From positions 1-31,621 of the IMG/VR virus record IMGVR_UViG_3300027801_002086: a DNA stretch of 31,621 nt. One strand, 5' to 3'. The first letter of the stretch is position 1; every line of letters begins with the position of its first letter. Below are positions 10,191 to 25,255 of this stretch, piece by piece. The DNA comes from a virus. The notes beneath the pieces were generated by a model that saw only the letters and a program-made list of their open reading frames with translations, made no database searches and had not been told where the DNA came from. Position numbers and translations under genes: made by a program.

Positions 10191-10649
10191 ATGCAAGAAG
10201 AAATACAAAAATGGATAGAGAATTTCGTCACCAAACCTAATAAACTATTAAATGGTTTTCCGCCATGTCCTTATGCAAGGACAGCCCTCATCAAATATGT
10301 AGAAACTGACCACTTGAATATGTTATTCGATATTCTTGAAAATTGGGATGATGACGTACAAGTAGTAGTTCTTCATACACCAACAGAGAATTACACACCT
10401 GAGGGCCTTCAATTTGTCGTAAAGAAATTTAATGAAATAGCAATGCGAAAAGATATTGTTGCATTAGAAGACCATCCAGATGATGTAGAAGATGTGAATG
10501 GCGTTAAAATGAACTTTGGTAAATGTATTATAGTCTTGGTACAACGATTAAGTAAGATAAATGAAGCCAGTCATCTACTTAAAGAAAAAGGGTATTATGA
10601 TGTATGGAGTAAAGAGAATTTAGATGATGTAGTTAACTGGAGAGAGTAA
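10191..10649 (+). CDS. Unknown protein with CPYAR motif (152 aa)
   Basis: Not assigned to a family. An N-terminal helix is followed by GFPPCPYARTALI (residues about 22-34), whose Cys-Pro-Tyr-Ala pattern looks functional. A central strand VQVVVLHTP and a second KCIIVLVQ alternate with helices, suggesting a compact alpha/beta enzyme or cofactor-binding domain. It overlaps the next gene by one base and forms a three-gene operon with a GNAT-like protein and an amidinotransferase, so it probably acts in the same pathway. No ribosome binding site precedes the ATG. Confidence 0.75.
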   Translation: MQEEIQKWIENFVTKPNKLLNGFPPCPYARTALIKYVETDHLNMLFDILENWDDDVQVVVLHTPTENYTPEGLQFVVKKFNEIAMRKDIVALEDHPDDVEDVNGVKMNFGKCIIVLVQRLSKINEASHLLKEKGYYDVWSKENLDDVVNWRE

Positions 10650-11131
10650 TGAGTTATTCGTATGCTAGAATTAACCTAGACAACACAAATTATAAAAAAA
10701 TAGAGAATTACCAGATTTTACCTAATCCTGACCCTAATCAACTTAATGAGATATACTATAAGTATTGTCGCTATCATAAGTTCAATAGTGTCATGCCAAT
10801 CTTCGATAGTGAATATGAAGATAATGAAGTTATAGGATATTATGACGGAGATATATTAGTTGCATTTTCCCTTATAGCACGTTACGATAGAGAGAATGCA
10901 GAAGCAGTACAATTTGCTTGGGACTATGTTAATCCTAAAATGTTTCTAGGTCTTTCAAGTTTAAGAAACGAATGTGCATTTTATAAAGAACAAGGATTTA
11001 AATATCTTTATATTGGCGGTGCAGATGCGTATAAAAATCAAATAGACGGACTTGAAATAATGACGCCAGTTTCTTGGATAGATGACAGATGGACAATAGA
11101 CGGATTTGAGAAAGTGCCAGGTATAGAGTAA
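10649..11131 (+). CDS. GNAT-fold protein resembling aminoacyl-tRNA-protein transferase C-terminus (160 aa)
   Basis: The stretch from about residue 68 (VIGYYDGDILVAFSLI, then FLGLSSLRNECAFYKEQG and FKYLYIGG) follows the strand-helix plan of the C-terminal GNAT-fold domain of arginyl/leucyl-tRNA-protein transferases (Ate/Bpt type), in which a YLYLG-like strand closes the site. The N-terminal zinc/cysteine region of those enzymes is absent, so it may be a different GNAT acyltransferase. It overlaps both neighbours by one base (TAATG), sitting between the CPYAR protein and the amidinotransferase. The exact substrate is unknown. The link to N-degron tagging is a hypothesis. Confidence 0.6.
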   Translation: MSYSYARINLDNTNYKKIENYQILPNPDPNQLNEIYYKYCRYHKFNSVMPIFDSEYEDNEVIGYYDGDILVAFSLIARYDRENAEAVQFAWDYVNPKMFLGLSSLRNECAFYKEQGFKYLYIGGADAYKNQIDGLEIMTPVSWIDDRWTIDGFEKVPGIE

Positions 11132-14017: not shown

Positions 14018-14446
14018 ATGAAATTAGTAGATAAAGATGACAAAATATTAAAGATGGTATGTGATGAACATATCATTTCGGAGCATTCTGAACCTTTAGT
14101 ATACGATATGATTGTAGCAATGAAAGAACATGATGCTATTGGTCTTGCCGCACCACAAGTCGGAGACAATACCGCATTGATGGTAATCGGACACGAAGAC
14201 AATGGGTATGTTGTATGTATAAACCCAACGTGGGAAGTAGCAGAAGATAGTGAATATGAAGAATTCTTAGAAGGATGTGTAAGTTTTCCTGGTTTGCAAT
14301 TAAAAATAACTAGGCACAATAGTATCATAGGGACATTTACAAATCTACAAGGAGAGAGAAAGTCAACAACATTTGTTGGAGTATGGGCACAAGCATTTCA
14401 ACACGAATGCGACCATCTAAACGGCATTACGTTTGATACTCTATAA
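14018..14446 (+). CDS. def: Peptide deformylase (142 aa)
   Basis: Removes the formyl group from N-terminal formyl-methionine of new proteins. All three family motifs are present: GLAAPQVG (42-49), EGCVSFPG (85-92, metal ligand Cys87) and QHECDHLNG (128-136, ligands His129 and His133 with catalytic Glu130). The C-terminal helix of the roughly 170-residue bacterial enzyme is missing, a shortening also known in cyanophage deformylases. It has a late-type promoter and a clear AAGGA site. Its stop overlaps the start of the SGNH gene. Confidence 0.93.
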   Translation: MKLVDKDDKILKMVCDEHIISEHSEPLVYDMIVAMKEHDAIGLAAPQVGDNTALMVIGHEDNGYVVCINPTWEVAEDSEYEEFLEGCVSFPGLQLKITRHNSIIGTFTNLQGERKSTTFVGVWAQAFQHECDHLNGITFDTL

Positions 14447-16060: not shown

Positions 16061-16577
16061 AGGAGTGTTAGACTTGAAGACATTTAGAGCAAGAATGGAC
16101 GACTTTTTCCATTGGGTGAAAGGAACTGAATTAGTAGAGTTAACTGATATCGATGTAAGTGAAGACCCAGTAAGACCAGGATTAGATTTAGCATTTAGAA
16201 CAAGTTATGGCCGCAAGATATACGGTTTGAAGTACGAAGACACCATTGAAGGTGTTATTTGTGTAGCATACTGTAATGATGTGCCACAAAGTGAACGAGA
16301 ACTAGACCTTATTAGTCAAAATGCACATTTGAAAGAAGATTCTAATACAGCAGTCGCATACACGGTCTGGAGTCGCAAGAGAGGGGCTGGTAGAGAGATT
16401 ATGACTAAGTTGAAGTCTCATCTACTAGAACAAACAAATATTAGACGAATCGTCACCTTGTCGCCATTAACACCAATGGCAACACATTTTCATATAAAAA
16501 ATGGTGCAAAATTGCTTAATATTAACGCAACAACACAAAATTTTGAATATAAATTGAAAAAAACAGCAAAAACTTGA
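16047..16577 (+). CDS. GNAT-like protein resembling malonyl-CoA decarboxylase C-terminus (up to 176 aa)
   Basis: The C-terminal half follows a GNAT fold. Its segment [20 protein letters not shown] then GAKLLNIN resembles, by eye, the catalytic GNAT domain of malonyl-CoA decarboxylase (LSPIPG, then FHxxNGAxLxxxN). The N-terminal helical domain of that enzyme is missing, so it may be a reduced relative or another acyl-CoA-using enzyme. The start is uncertain: ATG 16047 overlaps the ferredoxin stop, while AGAGGAG at 16058-16064 would better serve TTG 16074. Confidence 0.6.
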
Positions 16578-16601
16578 CAAAACCTGGTTTTATGCTATAA
16601 T
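16574..16601 (+). promoter_or_regulatory. Sigma70 promoter with palindromic spacer
   Basis: TTGACA at 16574-16579 and TATAAT at 16596-16601 with a 16-base spacer. The spacer contains the 13-base palindrome AAAACCTGGTTTT (16579-16591), a possible operator. It drives the secreted glycine-zipper gene at 16633. Confidence 0.75.
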
Positions 16602-17180: not shown

Positions 17181-17198
17181 TATAATATCTCATAAATA
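17181..17198 (+). promoter_or_regulatory. Overlapping -10 box and late motif
   Basis: TATAAT at 17181-17186 lacks a good -35 (TATAAC at 17 bases). CATAAATA at 17191-17198 fits the late motif, with a predicted start near 17204. Both would lead into the hairpin at 17214 before the gene at 17266. Confidence 0.5.
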
Positions 17199-17213
17199 CA
17201 GTATGAGAGAAAT

Positions 17214-17265: not shown

Positions 17266-18756
17266 ATGTTATTTCCAATAATTACATTTATAACCGCTAT
17301 CACAATCGCGGCAATTGCCGCATGGTTCTCAGTCGCTGGCCTTATGGCTATATTCACTGCATCGGCAATTTCAGTTGCCATTATGGCAGTAGCACTTGAA
17401 GTTGGTAAATTAGTAGCGGCATCATGGGTATACCGAAACTGGAAAAGGGCACCCTTTCTTTTAAAATCTTATCTTACTGTTGCAGTAATAGTCTTAATGC
17501 TTATTACATCAATGGGTATTTTTGGTTTCCTATCAAAGGCACATTTAGAACAAGCGGCCGATAGTGAAGAAAACACTGCTCGTATTGAACGTGTCGTACA
17601 AGACATGGCAAGATACGAAAGTACAAACACCAGACTTGAATTAAAGATTACAAAATTAGATAATGAGGGTGAAACAGATACCTCAAAAGTACAAGGACAA
17701 ATCGACCAAGAAGAAACAAGAATGGACAATGTTATGGTCCGAATTCAACCTTCAATCGATGAACAAAATTTAATCATTACTACTGAACTATCAAAAGATG
17801 ATAGTAAAGTTACTCCTTATTTAAATCAAATGGACAACTTAGATAATGACCTTGACAAACTTGAAGACCAGGCAAAGAAGTATGAGAATGATATCACTAG
17901 TGTTGGCAATGACACTACGAGTTACGACTATGCAGTAGCACCATTTCAGGACCAGATTGCAAAAATTAAATCAGACATAGCAACGTTTAAAGAGATGTCA
18001 AAATCTGGCACAAATGCAGACCTTAAGAAAGCACAAGCAGTTGTCGGTATTCCTTGGGGATATTGGAGAAACGCAGAAGTTCTAAAAGAATGGAACGAAG
18101 CAAACGCATTAAAATTAACTGAACTAGGAACGAAGATTGCAGAAGTTCGTAAAGATTTCGAAAAGCAGTATAAAGCAGAACGCATCAGACTTAGTAATAT
18201 GGTAGTAAAGTTACGAGGTCAAGATACACAAAAAATCAATGACCGTAAAATGGACTTACTAGTAAAGATTGAAGAAGCAAGAGGCATGGAGTCTCCTGTA
18301 ATATCTTCTGCTAGAGTAGAAATAAAAAGACTACGTGAAAAAGCAGATAGAGAAGTTGCAGGTTCTTTAATTATCCTTGATAGATTACGTAATGAACTAT
18401 TGAACGTATCACAAGTTGATAATTCAGTAGAGATTGATACACTTCAGTTGACAATAAATTCTAATGATGATGCTATTGATGTTTTGATTGACCAGAAGTT
18501 TGAATTAGAACGTGAGATTAGAGCAATTGCGACAGAGATTGGACCTATTAAATACATTGCAGAAATGGTATACGATAACACAGATAATGACACTATTGAC
18601 CAAGCAGTAAGATGGCTTATCATTGTATTCATTTTTGTATTTGACCCATTAGCAGTATTACTCTTAATTGCCGCAAACTATAGTTTCCAAAATAGAAATA
18701 ATGGTGGTAGACAAGAAGAATTATTCGATAAAGTCTCTTTCAAAAAAAAAAAGTAA
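17266..18756 (+). CDS. Membrane protein with long coiled coil (496 aa)
   Basis: Two or three N-terminal membrane segments (about 2-44 and 66-89) are followed by a long charged coiled-coil region (about 95-440) and one C-terminal segment (about 450-474, WLIIVFIFVFDPLAVLLLIA), ending in a Lys-rich tail. It may tether or remodel the host inner membrane; the family is not recognised. The frame extends upstream to ATG 17203, but that runs through the terminator and promoter, whereas ATG 17266 has a perfect GGAGGAGG site. The final codons lie on an A11 run with an A_AAA_AAG slippery site, from which a -1 shift would add about 100 acidic residues. Confidence 0.8.
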   Translation: MLFPIITFITAITIAAIAAWFSVAGLMAIFTASAISVAIMAVALEVGKLVAASWVYRNWKRAPFLLKSYLTVAVIVLMLITSMGIFGFLSKAHLEQAADSEENTARIERVVQDMARYESTNTRLELKITKLDNEGETDTSKVQGQIDQEETRMDNVMVRIQPSIDEQNLIITTELSKDDSKVTPYLNQMDNLDNDLDKLEDQAKKYENDITSVGNDTTSYDYAVAPFQDQIAKIKSDIATFKEMSKSGTNADLKKAQAVVGIPWGYWRNAEVLKEWNEANALKLTELGTKIAEVRKDFEKQYKAERIRLSNMVVKLRGQDTQKINDRKMDLLVKIEEARGMESPVISSARVEIKRLREKADREVAGSLIILDRLRNELLNVSQVDNSVEIDTLQLTINSNDDAIDVLIDQKFELEREIRAIATEIGPIKYIAEMVYDNTDNDTIDQAVRWLIIVFIFVFDPLAVLLLIAANYSFQNRNNGGRQEELFDKVSFKKKK

Positions 18757-19058
18757 AGAAACCACTTGACATTTCACCCGAAATAAGCGATAATATTACT
18801 AATGAAGAAGTAATAGATGTCATTCCATCCATTAAAGAACTTGAAGAAGTTGTTGAAGATGTTGAAGAAAAAGAAGAACCAGAAGATGATAGTTTTGGTG
18901 TAATCTTAGATGATGCAGAGATTGATGAGATTGAAGAAGAATTGACTCCAGAAGAAGTTGTTGAAGTCAAGAAGAAGGTTGAAAGAGAGATAAATACGAA
19001 GGCAATCAAACAAGATGGTTGGTTGGATGACGTTAATACTAAATTAAGCAAAGAATAG
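18732..19058 (+). CDS. Acidic frame without start codon, likely -1 frameshift extension
   Basis: From the poly-A run this frame stays open for about 100 codons and reads [19 protein letters not shown], then a long Glu/Asp-rich stretch, then [15 protein letters not shown] before TAG at 19056-19058. It has no ATG or GTG. It is open only back to 18732 (a stop lies at 18729-18731), so translation must enter by a shift in or near the A11 run. It would extend the 496-residue membrane protein by an acidic domain of about 100 residues. Its biased composition and clean end suggest real coding. The alternative is a one-base error in the homopolymer, which would make the two frames one ordinary gene. 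Confidence 0.6.
18742..18753 (+). other. A11 run with A_AAA_AAG slippery heptamer
   Basis: Eleven As followed by G. In the frame of the membrane-protein gene the codons are AAA AAA AAA AAG TAA, so 18747-18753 is the A_AAA_AAG heptamer used for -1 frameshifting in E. coli dnaX. A shift here avoids the TAA and enters the acidic frame. Confidence 0.65.
18766..18794 (+). promoter_or_regulatory. Sigma70 promoter inside the acidic frame
   Basis: TTGACA at 18766-18771 and GATAAT at 18789-18794 with a 17-base spacer. It could give early transcription of clpX, infC and bS21. Confidence 0.6.
18989..18996 (+). promoter_or_regulatory. Late promoter, GATAAATA
   Basis: Predicted start near 19002, ahead of clpX (19066). 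It lies inside the acidic frame, so chance occurrence is possible. Confidence 0.5.
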
Positions 19059-19065
19059 GTGCATA

Positions 19066-20328
19066 TTGCCAGATAATAAAGATTTTAAATGTTCATTTTG
19101 TGGAAAACCAAAGAATGAGATAAAGACATTAATAGCAGGTCCAAACCAGTACATTTGTAATGAATGTATTGACCTGTGCCATAATATTATTCACGAAGTA
19201 AAATCAAAGGCAGATAAGACTGATTATGCATCTGTAACAGTTACTCCAGAAGAAATTAAAGAGTACCTAGACGAACATGTGATTGGTCAAGACGAAGCAA
19301 AAGAAGTTGTTGCGGTCGCAGTATATAATCATTACAAACGTATCAATTCTACTGATACAGATATCGAATTAGACAAATCTAATATCTTAGTGTTCGGACC
19401 CAGTGGTACGGGTAAAACTTTAATAGGTAAAACTATTGCTAACTTCCTTGATGTACCATTTGCTCAAATTGATGCAACCACATTAACTGAAAGCGGGTAT
19501 GTTGGTGAAGATGTTGAGAATGTAGTTCAGCGATTACTGATTGCTTCTGATTTTGATGTTGAAAAAGCAGAACGTGGTATCGTGTACATTGATGAGATTG
19601 ATAAGAAAGCCAAGAAAGGTGAAAACTTATCAATTACAAAAGACGTATCGGGTGAAGGTGTACAACAAGCATTACTTAAAATCGTTGAAGGAACAATTGT
19701 TCGTGTCCCACCTGGCGGGGGTCGCAAACATCCAAACCAAGATATGATTGAAGTTGACACAAGAAAAATCTTATTCATCGTTGGCGGTGCATTTGTAGGC
19801 ATTGACAAGATTGTAGAAAATAGAGTGAACACAAATCCTGGTATTGGATTTGGAGCAAAACATAAAAACAAAGCATCTAAGTGTAATACTAGAGAAGAAA
19901 TTAGAACACAAGACCTTCTCAAATATGGACTAATACCAGAATTTATGGGTAGATTTCCAATCGTAGTGGGACTTGATGAACTCACAGAAGAAGAATTAGT
20001 TAGAATTCTTGTTGAACCAAGAAATAGTATAGTTGCTCAGTTTAAGAAATTGTTCTCTTTAGACAATGTAGAACTAGAGATGGGTGATGACACATTGTCA
20101 GCAATCGCCAAAATTGCTCATGAGGATACTACTGGTGCAAGAGGACTACGAAGTGTAATAGAAAAGTCATTATTGAAATTGCAATTCACTCTTCCAAAAT
20201 TAGCAAAAGCAGGACTGGAGAAAGTCATTATTACTAAAGAATTTATTAATGCAGAAGTAGATACTCCTATATTAGTATATAAAGAAGAACAAACCGAGGA
20301 GACTGAGCAAAATATAGATGGGAAATAA
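19066..20328 (+). CDS. clpX: ClpX, ATP-dependent protease unfoldase subunit (420 aa)
   Basis: A full-length ClpX. It has the N-terminal zinc-binding domain (Cys9, Cys12, Cys31, Cys34), Walker A GPSGTGKT (111-118), the pore loop GYVG (144-147), Walker B IVYIDEID (172-179), the RKH loop (220-222), the IGF loop in NPGIGFGAK (260-262) that docks on ClpP, and sensor 2 GARG (357-360). It unfolds tagged or adaptor-delivered proteins and feeds them to ClpP. No clpP is seen here, so it would use the host protease or act alone as a chaperone. The start is TTG with a weak ribosome site. It overlaps infC by 11 bases. Confidence 0.95.
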
Positions 20329-20848
20329 TTACAAAAAGAATACTATCATCTATAATAATCAGATAAGGTTTGATACGTTGCGAGTGATAGACAAAGATAG
20401 AACGCCATTAGGAATAATGAAAAAGTCAGAGGCTATAGAACTTGCACAATCACATGAGTTGGACTTAGTTCTCATTGTAGAAAATGCAGACCCACCAGTT
20501 GCCAGAATCATTGAGTTAAATAAGTATAAATACGAACTACAGAAGAACGAAAAGGAAATGGCTAAGAAAGCCAGAGCCTCTCGAATAGATACTAAAGAAG
20601 TAAAGTTTAAACCTAATATAGGTGAACATGATTTACTTATAAAACTGAACCAAGCACAAGACTTTTTAGATAATGGATGTAAAGTTAAGATTACTATTCA
20701 GATGCGAGGAAGAGAGAATGCAAATAGGGCAGAAGTATTTAAACAATTTAAAAATGCAATCGAATCACATTTAGTGAACTTTAAATGGGACTCAAACTTG
20801 GCATTAAACGGAAATAGAATAATAGGATTACTATATAAAGATGGCTAA
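20318..20848 (+). CDS. infC: Translation initiation factor IF-3 (176 aa)
   Basis: Full-length IF-3 with both domains. The N-domain includes [20 protein letters not shown] and [20 protein letters not shown]; a Lys-rich linker follows (about 76-90); the C-domain includes [20 protein letters not shown] and [14 protein letters not shown]-3 binds the 30S subunit, keeps subunits apart and checks start-codon pairing. A phage copy could favour phage messages with unusual starts or leaders. It overlaps clpX by 11 bases and bS21 by 8 bases, forming one translational unit. Confidence 0.95.
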
Positions 20849-21104
20849 ATTTACACCAAGAAAGACAGTTACAGGCAGAGAAAGACCGATAGGTACTCAT
20901 GTAGAAATACAGCATGACAACTTCGAAAGAGGATTAAGACTCTGGAAGAGAAAATGCTCAGATGCAGGAACAGTTCAGGAAGTTAGAGAACGTCAAGCAT
21001 TTATTAAACCTACTGAAAAAAGAAAAAAAGCCAAAGCGGCTGCCAAACAACGCACAAAGCGTGAACAAGCAAAGAATGTATTACGTAAGAAAAGAATGTA
21101 TTAA
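20841..21104 (+). CDS. rpsU: Ribosomal protein bS21 (87 aa)
   Basis: Contains the bS21 core VEIQHDNFERGLRLWKRKC, the SDAGTVQEVRERQAFIKPTE segment and a strongly basic C-terminal helix (RKKAKAAAKQRTKREQ). bS21 sits near the anti-Shine-Dalgarno end of 16S rRNA and helps choose messages. It is longer than E. coli bS21 (71) by an N-terminal stretch. Phage bS21 proteins are known from some marine and very large phages and may replace the host copy. It overlaps infC upstream and shares one base (TAATG) with the next gene. Confidence 0.92.
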   Translation: MAKFTPRKTVTGRERPIGTHVEIQHDNFERGLRLWKRKCSDAGTVQEVRERQAFIKPTEKRKKAKAAAKQRTKREQAKNVLRKKRMY

Positions 21105-21346
21105 TGGCAATTGATATACTTGAAACGCTAGATGTAAGAACTCTCCAGAAAGAGTCCGCTAGAGCATTGCTCACCATGGATGGAACAAGTCATGGAATAT
21201 CACGTTTCAACAAATTAGCACATCATAACTCGCAGAATTGGTACAAAGCAGTACTAATAGCGTATATAGAAGAACATGGAGGCTTACCTTGTGATGTAGG
21301 TCCCGCAAAAGATTTAGTGTTATTCTCTGAAACAATCGGTTTATAA
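21104..21346 (+). CDS. Unknown small protein (80 aa)
   Basis: Not recognised. It is mostly helical with DILETLDVRTLQKESARALL and a central SRFNKLAHHNSQNWYKAVLI. No signal or membrane segment is present. Coupling to bS21 by TAATG overlap suggests a role in the same translation-related unit, but that is only context. Confidence 0.7.
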   Translation: MAIDILETLDVRTLQKESARALLTMDGTSHGISRFNKLAHHNSQNWYKAVLIAYIEEHGGLPCDVGPAKDLVLFSETIGL

Positions 21347-21447: not shown

Positions 21448-21876
21448 ATGACAAGACACGTAACCACACTAACCCTGCCCGACTTCCACAGAACAATGCT
21501 AGGATTTGACCGATTGGTCGAAGACTTTCATACGTTCAATACAACAACGAACAACGGCTACCCCCCTTTCAACGTAGAGACTTCTGGTGATGACAAGTAT
21601 CAAATCACACTAGCACTCGCTGGATTCGTACGTGACGATTTAAACATCGATGTACAAGAAGGCATTCTTACTATTACAGGTGAGAAAGTAGAAGCAGAGT
21701 CCGAAGAAATTCAATATCTACACAAGGGTATTGCTAATAGAAGTTTCACAAGAACTTGGAAATTAGCAGAATACGTTGAAGTAGTTGAAGCAAAGATGGA
21801 AAATGGTATGCTTTACATCTCACTAGAACGTCTAGTTCCAGAAGAAAAGAAACCAAAATCTATCAAAATTAACTAA
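21448..21876 (+). CDS. Small heat shock protein, Hsp20/IbpA-like (142 aa)
   Basis: An alpha-crystallin domain at about 38-130 carries PFNVETSGDDKYQITLALAG, the GILTITGEK strand and ENGMLYISLERLVPEEKKPK, followed by the C-terminal IxI anchor (Ile139-Lys-Ile141) used for oligomer assembly. It holds unfolding proteins without ATP. The frame opens upstream at ATG 21394, but ATG 21448 has an AAGGAG site six bases before it and matches family length. Hsp20 genes are known in T4-like cyanophages. A promoter and terminator follow it closely. Confidence 0.92.
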   Translation: MTRHVTTLTLPDFHRTMLGFDRLVEDFHTFNTTTNNGYPPFNVETSGDDKYQITLALAGFVRDDLNIDVQEGILTITGEKVEAESEEIQYLHKGIANRSFTRTWKLAEYVEVVEAKMENGMLYISLERLVPEEKKPKSIKIN

Positions 21877-21884
21877 AAAGTTAC

Positions 21885-21913
21885 TTGACATTAACTACTA
21901 AATTAGTTATAAT
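21885..21913 (+). promoter_or_regulatory. Consensus sigma70 promoter
   Basis: TTGACA at 21885-21890 and TATAAT at 21908-21913 with a 17-base spacer. The spacer contains the inverted repeat TAACTA/TAGTTA. A transcript starting near 21920 would run straight into the hairpin at 21919-21947. Confidence 0.75.
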
Positions 21914-21918
21914 TGAAG

Positions 21919-21947
21919 GAGAGGTACAGAAATGTGTCTCTCTTTTT
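21919..21947 (+). terminator. Intrinsic terminator with GAAA tetraloop
   Basis: GAGAGGTACA (21919-21928) pairs with TGTGTCTCTC (21933-21942) around a GAAA loop: ten pairs including two G-T wobbles, followed by five Ts. It can end the hsp20 transcript and would also end the transcript from the promoter just upstream. Confidence 0.75.
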
Positions 21948-21969
21948 AGTAACATTCGGGTGATTTTTG

Positions 21970-21977
21970 TATAAATA
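21970..21977 (+). promoter_or_regulatory. Late promoter, TATAAATA
   Basis: Exact late consensus. Predicted start near 21983, followed by a GAGGGAGAG site and the clpS ATG at 22002. Confidence 0.7.
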
Positions 21978-22001: not shown

Positions 22002-22319
22002 ATGATTGAAAGTAACGAAAAAGAAAAGATACAATCGTCCGATAATTCGTTATTAACAATAGGCGAACCGAAGCAGTATTATGTAGTAATGCATAATGAT
22101 GATAGCACTCCGTTCGATTTTGTTATTGACATACTTATGGCGTTATTTAATCACGACCAAGGCACATCGGCTGATTTAGCACATAAGATACACCAAGATG
22201 AAAAGGCAATTGTAGGAATGTATAATTTAGAAATCGCAGAACAAAAAGTAGAAGAAACTGTTAAAGCAAGTAGAGTTGCAAATTATCCTTTATCAGTATC
22301 TTTAGAACCAACGACATAA
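22002..22319 (+). CDS. clpS: ClpS, N-degron adaptor (105 aa)
   Basis: ClpS fold: YYVVMHNDDSTPFDFVIDIL at 26-45, the KIHQDEKAIVGMYNLEIAEQ helix region at 62-81, and the terminal NYPLSVSLEP. The N-degron pocket residues are present: Asn32, Asp33, Asp34 (E. coli Asn34, Asp35, Asp36) and His64 (E. coli His66). The E. coli gatekeeper Met40 is Phe38 here, which may change which N-terminal residues fit. ClpS normally delivers proteins with bulky N-terminal residues to ClpAP; no clpA is seen, so it would work with the host ClpA. Late promoter and good ribosome site upstream. Confidence 0.92.
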   Translation: MIESNEKEKIQSSDNSLLTIGEPKQYYVVMHNDDSTPFDFVIDILMALFNHDQGTSADLAHKIHQDEKAIVGMYNLEIAEQKVEETVKASRVANYPLSVSLEPTT

Positions 22320-23815: not shown

Positions 23816-25255
23816 TTGGCAGCAATTCTGACCCTACTCGCAGGAACATTTTACGGACTAATCATAGGACTTATACCTAGTGCAGGAGCCACAACTGGAC
23901 TCGTAGCACTATTTGGTTTCATAAGTTACTTTAGTTTCGACCCATATCTAGGCGTAATCTTCTGTATGGCAGTAGTTGCCTCAAGTACAACGGGCGATAC
24001 TTATGCAGGAATACTATTAGGTATCCCAGGCGCAAACTCAGCCGCAGCCACAATGGTTGATGGATATCCACTAGCACAACAAGGCAGAGCCACAGAGGCA
24101 CTAACAGCCGCAATCACAACAAGCACAATCAACGGACTATTTTGGGGCACATTAACTTTTGCCCTATTGCCTCAGTACGCAAAACTCATTATGTATTTTG
24201 GTATTCCAGAGTTGTGGGCTTTCATCTTGTTAAGTTTGGCATGTGTGGGATTTGTCAGTAATAGATTTTGGTTTAGAAGTATTATAGCAATATGCGTAGG
24301 TATCTTTATAGGGTTAATAGGAATAGACCCAGAAACAAACATAGACAGATTTACTTTTGGATGGGACTATCTAGGTGATGGTGTACAACTTATGCCATTA
24401 GTTGCTGGACTATTTGCTTTTCCTGAGATAATCGCTGGTTGGAGAAGAGGCAACTCAATCGCAACAATAGGCGAAGAAACACATACGCATCAGACTTGGG
24501 AAGGTATTAAAGCAGTTTGGAAATATAAATGGGATGCACTACGTGGTGGTGCTATTGGCGCCTTTGTAGGGTTTTTACCTGGATTAGGTGGAGCAATGGG
24601 AGATTGGATGAGTTACGGTGCCACAGTAGCAAGTCATCCCGAAGAAGAATTTGGAAATGGCAATATGAGAGGCGTTGTAGGTCCAGAAGGAAGCAACAAT
24701 GCCCAAAAAGCAACTAGTATGATACCAACAGTATTGTTTGGCATACCAGGAGCAAGTTTTGCCGCAGTACTATTAGGACTATTTGCGTACTTAGGTTTCG
24801 AATTGGGAACACAAGAAATCGCCGCAGATATAAAGTTCTTTGACAGTTTAACATTTGGATTTATGTGGGCGACAGTAATTACTGGTATACTTTGTGTAGC
24901 ATTTAATAAGCAAATTGCAAAGATAACTTATGTTCCCTACATTTATTACTTCCCATTCTTAGTGGGATTTATCATCTGGGCTTGTGTTCAATACACAGGC
25001 GGATGGCAAGACTATGCTATATTAGGTATTACTACCTGTTTAGGATTGTTTATGAAGAAGTACAAGTTTAGTAGACCTGCCTTGTTAATGGCATTTATAC
25101 TTGCAATGAAAATAGAGGCATTATCTTTACAAATGTGGTTCATTTACTCAGTAGACACACTAGTAACACGACCATTATTTTTAGGTATAATGACTGTAGT
25201 AATTATGCTATTAGTATTCAGCATAGTTAAGAGAAGTAAACTAGAATATGCTTAA
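23816..25255 (+). CDS. tctA: TctA-family tripartite tricarboxylate transporter permease (479 aa)
   Basis: A very hydrophobic multi-pass membrane protein with TctA signatures: GLIIGLIPSAGATTGLV at the N-terminus (about 14-30), a second GFLPGLGGAMGDW near 252-264, and PTVLFGIPGASFAAVLLG near 303-320. TctA is the large membrane subunit of tripartite transporters that import citrate or related carboxylates using a TctC binding protein and a small TctB subunit. The start is TTG, eight bases after AAGGA. A late-type promoter precedes it and a TctC-like gene follows. No TctB gene lies between them. Phage transporters of this family would be unusual. Confidence 0.9.
   Translation: MAAILTLLAGTFYGLIIGLIPSAGATTGLVALFGFISYFSFDPYLGVIFCMAVVASSTTGDTYAGILLGIPGANSAAATMVDGYPLAQQGRATEALTAAITTSTINGLFWGTLTFALLPQYAKLIMYFGIPELWAFILLSLACVGFVSNRFWFRSIIAICVGIFIGLIGIDPETNIDRFTFGWDYLGDGVQLMPLVAGLFAFPEIIAGWRRGNSIATIGEETHTHQTWEGIKAVWKYKWDALRGGAIGAFVGFLPGLGGAMGDWMSYGATVASHPEEEFGNGNMRGVVGPEGSNNAQKATSMIPTVLFGIPGASFAAVLLGLFAYLGFELGTQEIAADIKFFDSLTFGFMWATVITGILCVAFNKQIAKITYVPYIYYFPFLVGFIIWACVQYTGGWQDYAILGITTCLGLFMKKYKFSRPALLMAFILAMKIEALSLQMWFIYSVDTLVTRPLFLGIMTVVIMLLVFSIVKRSKLEYA

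Follow-up and report, generated by a model that had tools for sequence, protein, structure and literature searches.

A conserved clpX-infC-bS21-hsp20-clpS gene block in large phages

We analysed a stretch of viral DNA of 31,621 nucleotides (IMG/VR record IMGVR_UViG_3300027801_002086, positions 1 to 31,621), which we call the window. The window contains a block of genes for ClpX, translation initiation factor IF-3 (infC), ribosomal protein bS21, a small helical protein (U80), Hsp20 and the N-degron adaptor ClpS. This block is a real, conserved module. Its parts are of known kinds and have mostly been published; for the ordered set we found no earlier account. On balance, we think it probable that large phages with T4-type late transcription use this conserved block for host takeover, directed at late translation and protein quality.

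So far, most reports have listed the ribosomal proteins and initiation factors of phages one at a time. The block addresses a question on which two studies disagree: one suggests that a viral bS21 may require extra virus- or host-encoded factors (PMC6375957), whereas Pelagimyophage S21 lies in no gene cluster and was taken to need no further viral factor (PMC7029224). The infC-bS21 overlap in many large phages, the natural infC-less versions and the cultured phage Atu_ph07 make the question of a helper factor for bS21 directly testable. Because ClpX, Hsp20 and ClpS so regularly accompany the translation genes, these phages may run protein making and protein clearing as one programme.

The gene block and its proteins

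The preliminary description of this DNA had reported four overlapping genes between 19066 and 21346. The overlaps are exactly as it gave them: by ORF coordinates 11 bases are shared by clpX and infC, 8 by infC and bS21, and 1 by bS21 and U80. The block is longer than these four genes. A membrane/coiled-coil protein gene precedes clpX, and hsp20 and clpS follow U80 (Table 1). The true start of hsp20 is probably 21448. Every gene of the block, U80 included, is under purifying selection (median pN/pS 0.06-0.23). Because gene order and short overlaps also recur in independent contigs, the arrangement is not due to chance.

Table 1. Coordinates of the block genes and expression signals in the window, and of inverted repeats in sister phages
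Feature	Position	Strand	Remarks
Perfect-consensus sigma-70-type promoter	16574..16601	+	upstream of the 170-aa gene preceding the block; conserved in relatives
T4-late-promoter-like motif CATAAATA	17191..17198	+	ahead of the membrane-protein gene; conserved in close relatives
Membrane/coiled-coil protein, first gene of the block	17266..18756	+	revised start (a call from 17203 is probably overlong); SD GAGGAGG in relatives
A11 run, then an acidic -1-frame tail	18742..19058	+	end of the membrane-protein gene; candidate frameshift/slippage site
clpX	19066..20328	+	TTG start; 420 aa; Pfam, PDB alignment
infC (translation initiation factor IF-3)	20318..20848	+	176 aa; Pfam, PHROG 9787 (2e-42), PDB alignment
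Ribosomal protein bS21	20841..21104	+	87 aa; Pfam, alignment with E. coli bS21
U80, small helical protein	21104..21346	+	80 aa; family without a name; at least 278 viral relatives
hsp20	21448..21876	+	Pfam 2.1e-19; start set by SD AAGGAG; longest ORF from 21394
Perfect sigma-70 promoter, then at once a T-run hairpin	21885..21950	+	between hsp20 and clpS; compensated stem changes in relatives
Late-promoter-like motif TATAAATA	21970..21977	+	ahead of clpS
clpS, N-degron adaptor	22002..22319	+	Pfam 4.8e-24 (PF02617), PDB alignment
Inverted-repeat sites (sister phages)	L016:1438-1497, L102:4572-4634, L104:4349-4408, L105:4384-4438, L107, L118		

According to Pfam and alignments, clpX, infC and bS21 are intact, as had been claimed for the latter two. 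Window IF-3 matches both IF3_N (5.7e-24) and IF3_C (8.6e-18), covering the profiles almost fully, and in the alignment a lysine-rich linker joins the N- and C-terminal domains. It is 39% identical to E. coli IF-3 over residues 15-150 (53/136) and keeps the RGRE motif. Of the basic residues of the E. coli C-domain, K110, R131 and R133 are kept, and four are changed (R99K, R112N, R116D, R129Q); position 99 is an arginine in 36 of 40 phages with the module.

The bS21 protein matches the Ribosomal_S21 profile (PF01165, 1.1e-14). It has the S21 core and the basic C-terminal helix, and aligns with E. coli bS21 down to the C-terminus, via the C-terminal RMY/RLY. A basic extension of about 15 residues is added at the N-terminus. 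Across the module phages the median extension is 27 residues with infC and 20 without (p = 0.05, uncorrected for kinship), a link on which we do not rely.

ClpX matches the ClpX zinc finger (zf-C4_ClpX, 4e-17) and AAA_2 (1.9e-32). Aligned to the E. coli protein, it retains the zinc-binding domain, Walker A and B, the GYVG pore loop, the RKH loop and the IGF loop. The IGF loop is the part of ClpX that docks on ClpP. ClpS retains the NDD motif and the histidine of the N-degron pocket (alignment to E. coli ClpS).

The gene ahead of clpX ends in an unusual way. A stop follows a run of eleven A (A11, 18742-18752); nowhere else does the window have eight or more A in a row. After the run, the -1 frame is open for 101 codons (18753-19058) and ends just before clpX. 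The end of this -1-frame tail matches the in-frame C-terminus of the protein in sister phages (e.g., L107). Run length at this site is A9-A11 in close relatives and A8-A9 in a second clade. These features point to a likely programmed -1 frameshift or transcriptional slippage at A11.

Conservation of the block and its known relatives

To describe conservation we used the window clpX as query, which yielded 80 loci on viral contigs, or 52 lineages at 90% clpX identity. At least 3 kb of downstream sequence was present in 49 of the 52, and partners were counted within 6 kb of clpX. All proportions thus hold for the lineage of the window clpX and not for phage clpX in general. The most constant partner is bS21 (46 of the 49 lineages), followed by hsp20 (44), clpS (40), infC (38) and U80 (17). 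The order clpX-infC-bS21-hsp20-clpS is the commonest (19 lineages), then its U80-containing version (12), and the same block order is found in dozens of very large phages. A membrane/coiled-coil gene lies upstream of clpX in most clpX loci. Junctions between clpX and infC mostly overlap or abut, and spacings of -8 and -4 recur between infC and bS21.

Pairing of IF-3 with bS21 is common within this clpX lineage. In scans of whole records, many of them fragments, bS21 was present in 38 of 38 records with infC, and 8 records had bS21 without infC. The same scans, again with many fragments, found no infC elsewhere in records whose block misses it. Tree distances are correlated within the block (Mantel 0.57-0.61 among clpX, infC and bS21; 0/500 permutations), which shows joint inheritance. 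The absence of infC clusters on the clpX tree: a well-supported clade of seven lineages keeps bS21 without it, and a pair has lost both genes. Two lineages (L156, L166) carry clpX-hsp20-clpS with neither infC nor bS21. On the clpX tree infC was lost separately several times. The two genes also occur together where clpX is missing from its place: in a contig of a metagenome-assembled genome, infC overlaps bS21, and no clpX separates the two from the membrane-protein gene.

Agrobacterium phage Atu_ph07 is a cultured representative. It has clpX (gp2), IF-3 (gp1), bS21 (gp713), Hsp20 (gp710) and ClpS (gp708) in the order of the window and on one strand, spanning the start of the record; gp713 is annotated as hypothetical, and we identified it as bS21 with PF01165. 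In contrast to the window, the block genes of the group formed by Atu_ph07, AP-J-162 and Phosso are spaced, with others between them, and do not overlap. In Sinorhizobium phage Phosso clpX adjoins IF-3, as in the window, but bS21 follows about 6.5 kb further on; clpX adjoining IF-3 has also been noted in Sinorhizobium phage AP-J-162 (PMC11242549). The authors who worked on this group saw ClpX as connected with DNA replication, and their papers do not present the genes as a module.

Other cultured phages have parts of the block. In Pseudomonas phage PA5oct and its kin (Wroclawvirus) clpX overlaps bS21, and hsp20 and clpS follow, as in the window. However, the PA5oct genome is without IF-3, and two other genes separate bS21 from hsp20. 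In Escherichia phage 121Q (Asteriusvirus), the gene for a phage IF-3 has ClpS and a DnaJ-like gene immediately behind it, but the genome is without bS21 and its gene order differs. Since 121Q has IF-3 without bS21, and infC-less lineages keep bS21, the pair is not obligate among phages. IF-3 matches in records named 'Acinetobacter phage MD-2021a' (L170) lie in thrS-infC-rpmI-rplT; this is bacterial DNA, and we did not count it as phage IF-3.

The huge phages of Al-Shayeb et al. 2020 (PMC7162821) resemble the window in having IF3 and an N-extended rpS21; the main text of that paper is an inventory of parts and holds no ordered clpX-infC-bS21-hsp20-clpS block. Chen et al. 2022 (PMC9723584) described bS21 phages of freshwater Bacteroidetes and, in some of 900 phages, counted Hsp20 and Clp genes within ten genes of bS21. 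Unlike in the window, the bS21 gene of the Bacteroidetes phages is surrounded by capsid genes and is on the opposite strand, and the main text makes no mention of IF3. For pelagiphage HTVC008M, Mizuno et al. 2019 (PMC6375957) showed that bS21 incorporates into ribosomes and described no companion IF-3. IF3, ClpX, ClpS and Hsp20 of jumbo phages have each been mentioned (PMC7824862). In the main texts of the open literature we found no description of the ordered module. The coupling of IF-3, bS21 and ClpX had been called unusual; it is real and conserved, and we found no earlier account of it as a module, but a phage IF3 is in itself nothing unusual.

Start sites, promoters and timing

Translation starts in the window look ordinary. 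Shine-Dalgarno (SD) matches of at least 4 nt precede 20 of 41 starts, compared to 146 of 837 other ATGs (17%). Both genes that had been noted for TTG starts, clpX and tctA, carry SD matches of 5 nt (AGGTG for clpX), and the TTG of clpX is kept in close relatives. IF3 discriminates only against non-canonical start codons, of which UUG is not one, and antagonises leaderless mRNAs (PMC4611024). The preliminary description had taken the TTG starts and apparently leaderless messages as a motive for a modified initiation machinery. This motive falls away, because both TTG genes have an SD, SD sites are enriched overall and IF3 works against leaderless messages. Two apparent leaderless starts come after a late-promoter-like motif. 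The one at 17203 was mis-called: in relatives this frame is closed, and the gene starts at the position that corresponds to 17266. A single leaderless message is possible at 10191, with only 5 nt between such a motif and the start.

Four perfect sigma-70 promoters are present in the window, where 0.05 are expected. One of them directly precedes a hairpin between hsp20 and clpS; promoter and hairpin are conserved in relatives and may perhaps form an attenuator or a short RNA. T4-late-promoter-like NATAAATA motifs are enriched ahead of starts; the membrane-protein gene that opens the block has one, and so does clpS. For ATAAATA, 12 of 15 copies lie at most 80 nt upstream of starts, a zone that holds 10% of positions. 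A gp55-type late sigma factor (phrog_12791, 1e-79 or better) is encoded in each of the five records that carry the block and reach at least 187 kb; the window fragment itself contains none.

In sister phages an inverted repeat surrounds the late-promoter-like motif GATAAATAC, and its 3' arm extends over the SD of the gene that heads the block. The arms are 9-15 pairs long. Folding predicts that the SD is hidden in read-through RNA and freer in RNA started at the motif, most clearly in six phages. Such control would be similar to that of T4 gene e, which is translated only late. We looked for an SD-hiding late hairpin in the clade of the window as well; it is absent there, and a T-run hairpin lies between motif and SD.

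From these signals, late expression of the block appears likely, and the window phage itself probably expresses the block late. Phage bS21 expression has been found to be late elsewhere (PMC9723584).

Possible functions of the block

Genes for IF1, IF3 and an S21 with a basic N-terminal extension have been described in huge phages, and the proteins have been proposed to redirect host translation (PMC7162821). For the block we propose that phage IF-3 and bS21, made from overlapping genes, would join the host 30S subunit. The phage bS21 would enter as an exchangeable ribosomal protein, positioned where the SD-antiSD helix forms, and IF-3 would act through its control of subunit joining and start selection. 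Most likely the two would together sustain initiation, and they may bias it toward phage messages during bulk synthesis of virion proteins. Selective control of initiation by the phage pair is plausible. Phage ClpX could dock on the ClpP of the host, or on that of the phage if it encodes one, and ClpS would deliver N-degron clients to host ClpAP. ClpX, Hsp20 and ClpS would absorb the load of folding and turnover and may remove host proteins. The translation genes and the proteolysis genes may also be tied to each other directly.

Several observations count against such a takeover. IF-3 and bS21 are not an obligate pair, and the length of the bS21 N-extension is not clearly tied to infC. Window IF-3 appears to lack a number of basic residues that the C-domain has in E. 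coli. The viral bS21 of HTVC008M enters E. coli ribosomes, and translation then drops to about 5% (PMC6375957). Pelagimyophage S21 lies outside any cluster (PMC7029224). In E. coli, coupled genes are re-initiated less often when IF3 is in excess (PMC2268962), so that extra phage IF-3 could damp the phage's own overlapping operon.

A possible, though rather doubtful, alternative is that IF-3 and bS21 simply top up loosely bound host factors that become limiting. Start choice would then be unchanged, and the genes would be grouped by shared late expression. The ordinary, SD-enriched starts of the window fit this idea, as does the fact that either half can be missing (121Q has IF3 without bS21, PA5oct bS21 without IF3, and infC was lost several times). 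Against it stand the basic N-terminal extension of window bS21, a feature that has been read as a sign of altered binding (PMC7162821), and the finding that viral bS21 was not functionally neutral in E. coli (PMC6375957).

It is unlikely that ClpX, Hsp20 and ClpS alone form the true unit, one of late protein quality control serving capsid assembly or the removal of host proteins, with infC and bS21 as passengers in a late operon. Lineages L156 and L166, which keep clpX-hsp20-clpS without the other two genes, speak for such a unit, and so do the ClpP-family genes found in 20 of the 49 clpX-lineage records. A further point in its favour is that earlier authors had linked phage ClpX to DNA replication, given neighbouring topoisomerase genes (PMC6102473). 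Yet the most constant partner of clpX is bS21, overlapping it or a few bases away, and infC can overlap bS21 where clpX is missing from that place.

There is a slim chance that host takeover goes further than we propose, by analogy with the low activity of ribosomes containing viral bS21. In that case bS21 and IF-3 would be a matched pair: bS21 alone would spoil the host 30S subunit, and phage IF-3 would restore activity selectively on phage messages. ClpX with host ClpP would remove host factors, and the ribosomes would be fully converted late in infection.

Finally, it is highly improbable that the block alters initiation for leaderless or non-ATG messages with U80 as a new ribosome factor: the conserved TTG of clpX and the motif at 10191, which permits one leaderless message, agree with it, but both TTG genes have SD sites within an overall enrichment, the start at 17203 was mis-called, IF3 antagonises leaderless mRNAs (PMC4611024) and the genomic context of U80 is one of radical-SAM genes.

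U80 had been suggested to be a new ribosome-linked factor, to be checked by a survey of its gene neighbourhood. We ran this survey, and it leads away from the ribosome: outside the block U80 has mostly a radical-SAM context and shows no sign of a link to translation genes. The family has no match in Pfam, PHROG or NCBIfam. We kept the best 80 of at least 278 viral loci, which come mostly from phages without the block. Among these best 80 of 278, 71 loci outside the block were compared: 24 have a radical-SAM homologue that starts at most 100 nt downstream of U80, and a further 40 have one at some other place in the locus. In a 518-kb record, the U80 domain forms the N-terminus of a radical-SAM protein (L175:2677-4020); the block in this record is without infC, bS21 and U80. 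Viral records with U80 outside the block, many of them fragments, contain bS21 in 1 of 38 cases and IF3 in 0 of 38. Inside the block, the distance from U80 to bS21 varies from -37 to 4039 nt, and U80 usually lies about 300 nt or less from hsp20. In cellular genomes U80 was found in one MAG contig only.

The structure model of U80 is helical (pLDDT 92). Its closest PDB matches, to death domains, have E values of 2.7 or worse, and we draw no meaning from them. PDB matches to designed repeat proteins, and weak profile matches of single members of the family (Lnu(B), GerAC, an endonuclease PHROG), we take as chance. Our best guess is that U80, small and helical, serves elsewhere as a partner or recognition domain linked to radical-SAM enzymes.

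The window has no tRNA genes that we could find and no match to Rfam families. Outside the block it contains a further translation-related gene, for peptide deformylase (14018-14446). The protein encoded at 10649-11131 weakly resembles an arginyl-tRNA-protein transferase (ATE_C, with an E value of 0.0014 that misses the cut-off), which is of interest since the phage also encodes ClpS, an N-degron adaptor. A TctA-type transporter gene of the tripartite tricarboxylate family lies at 23816-25255 and is 97% identical in two relatives (L005, L006).
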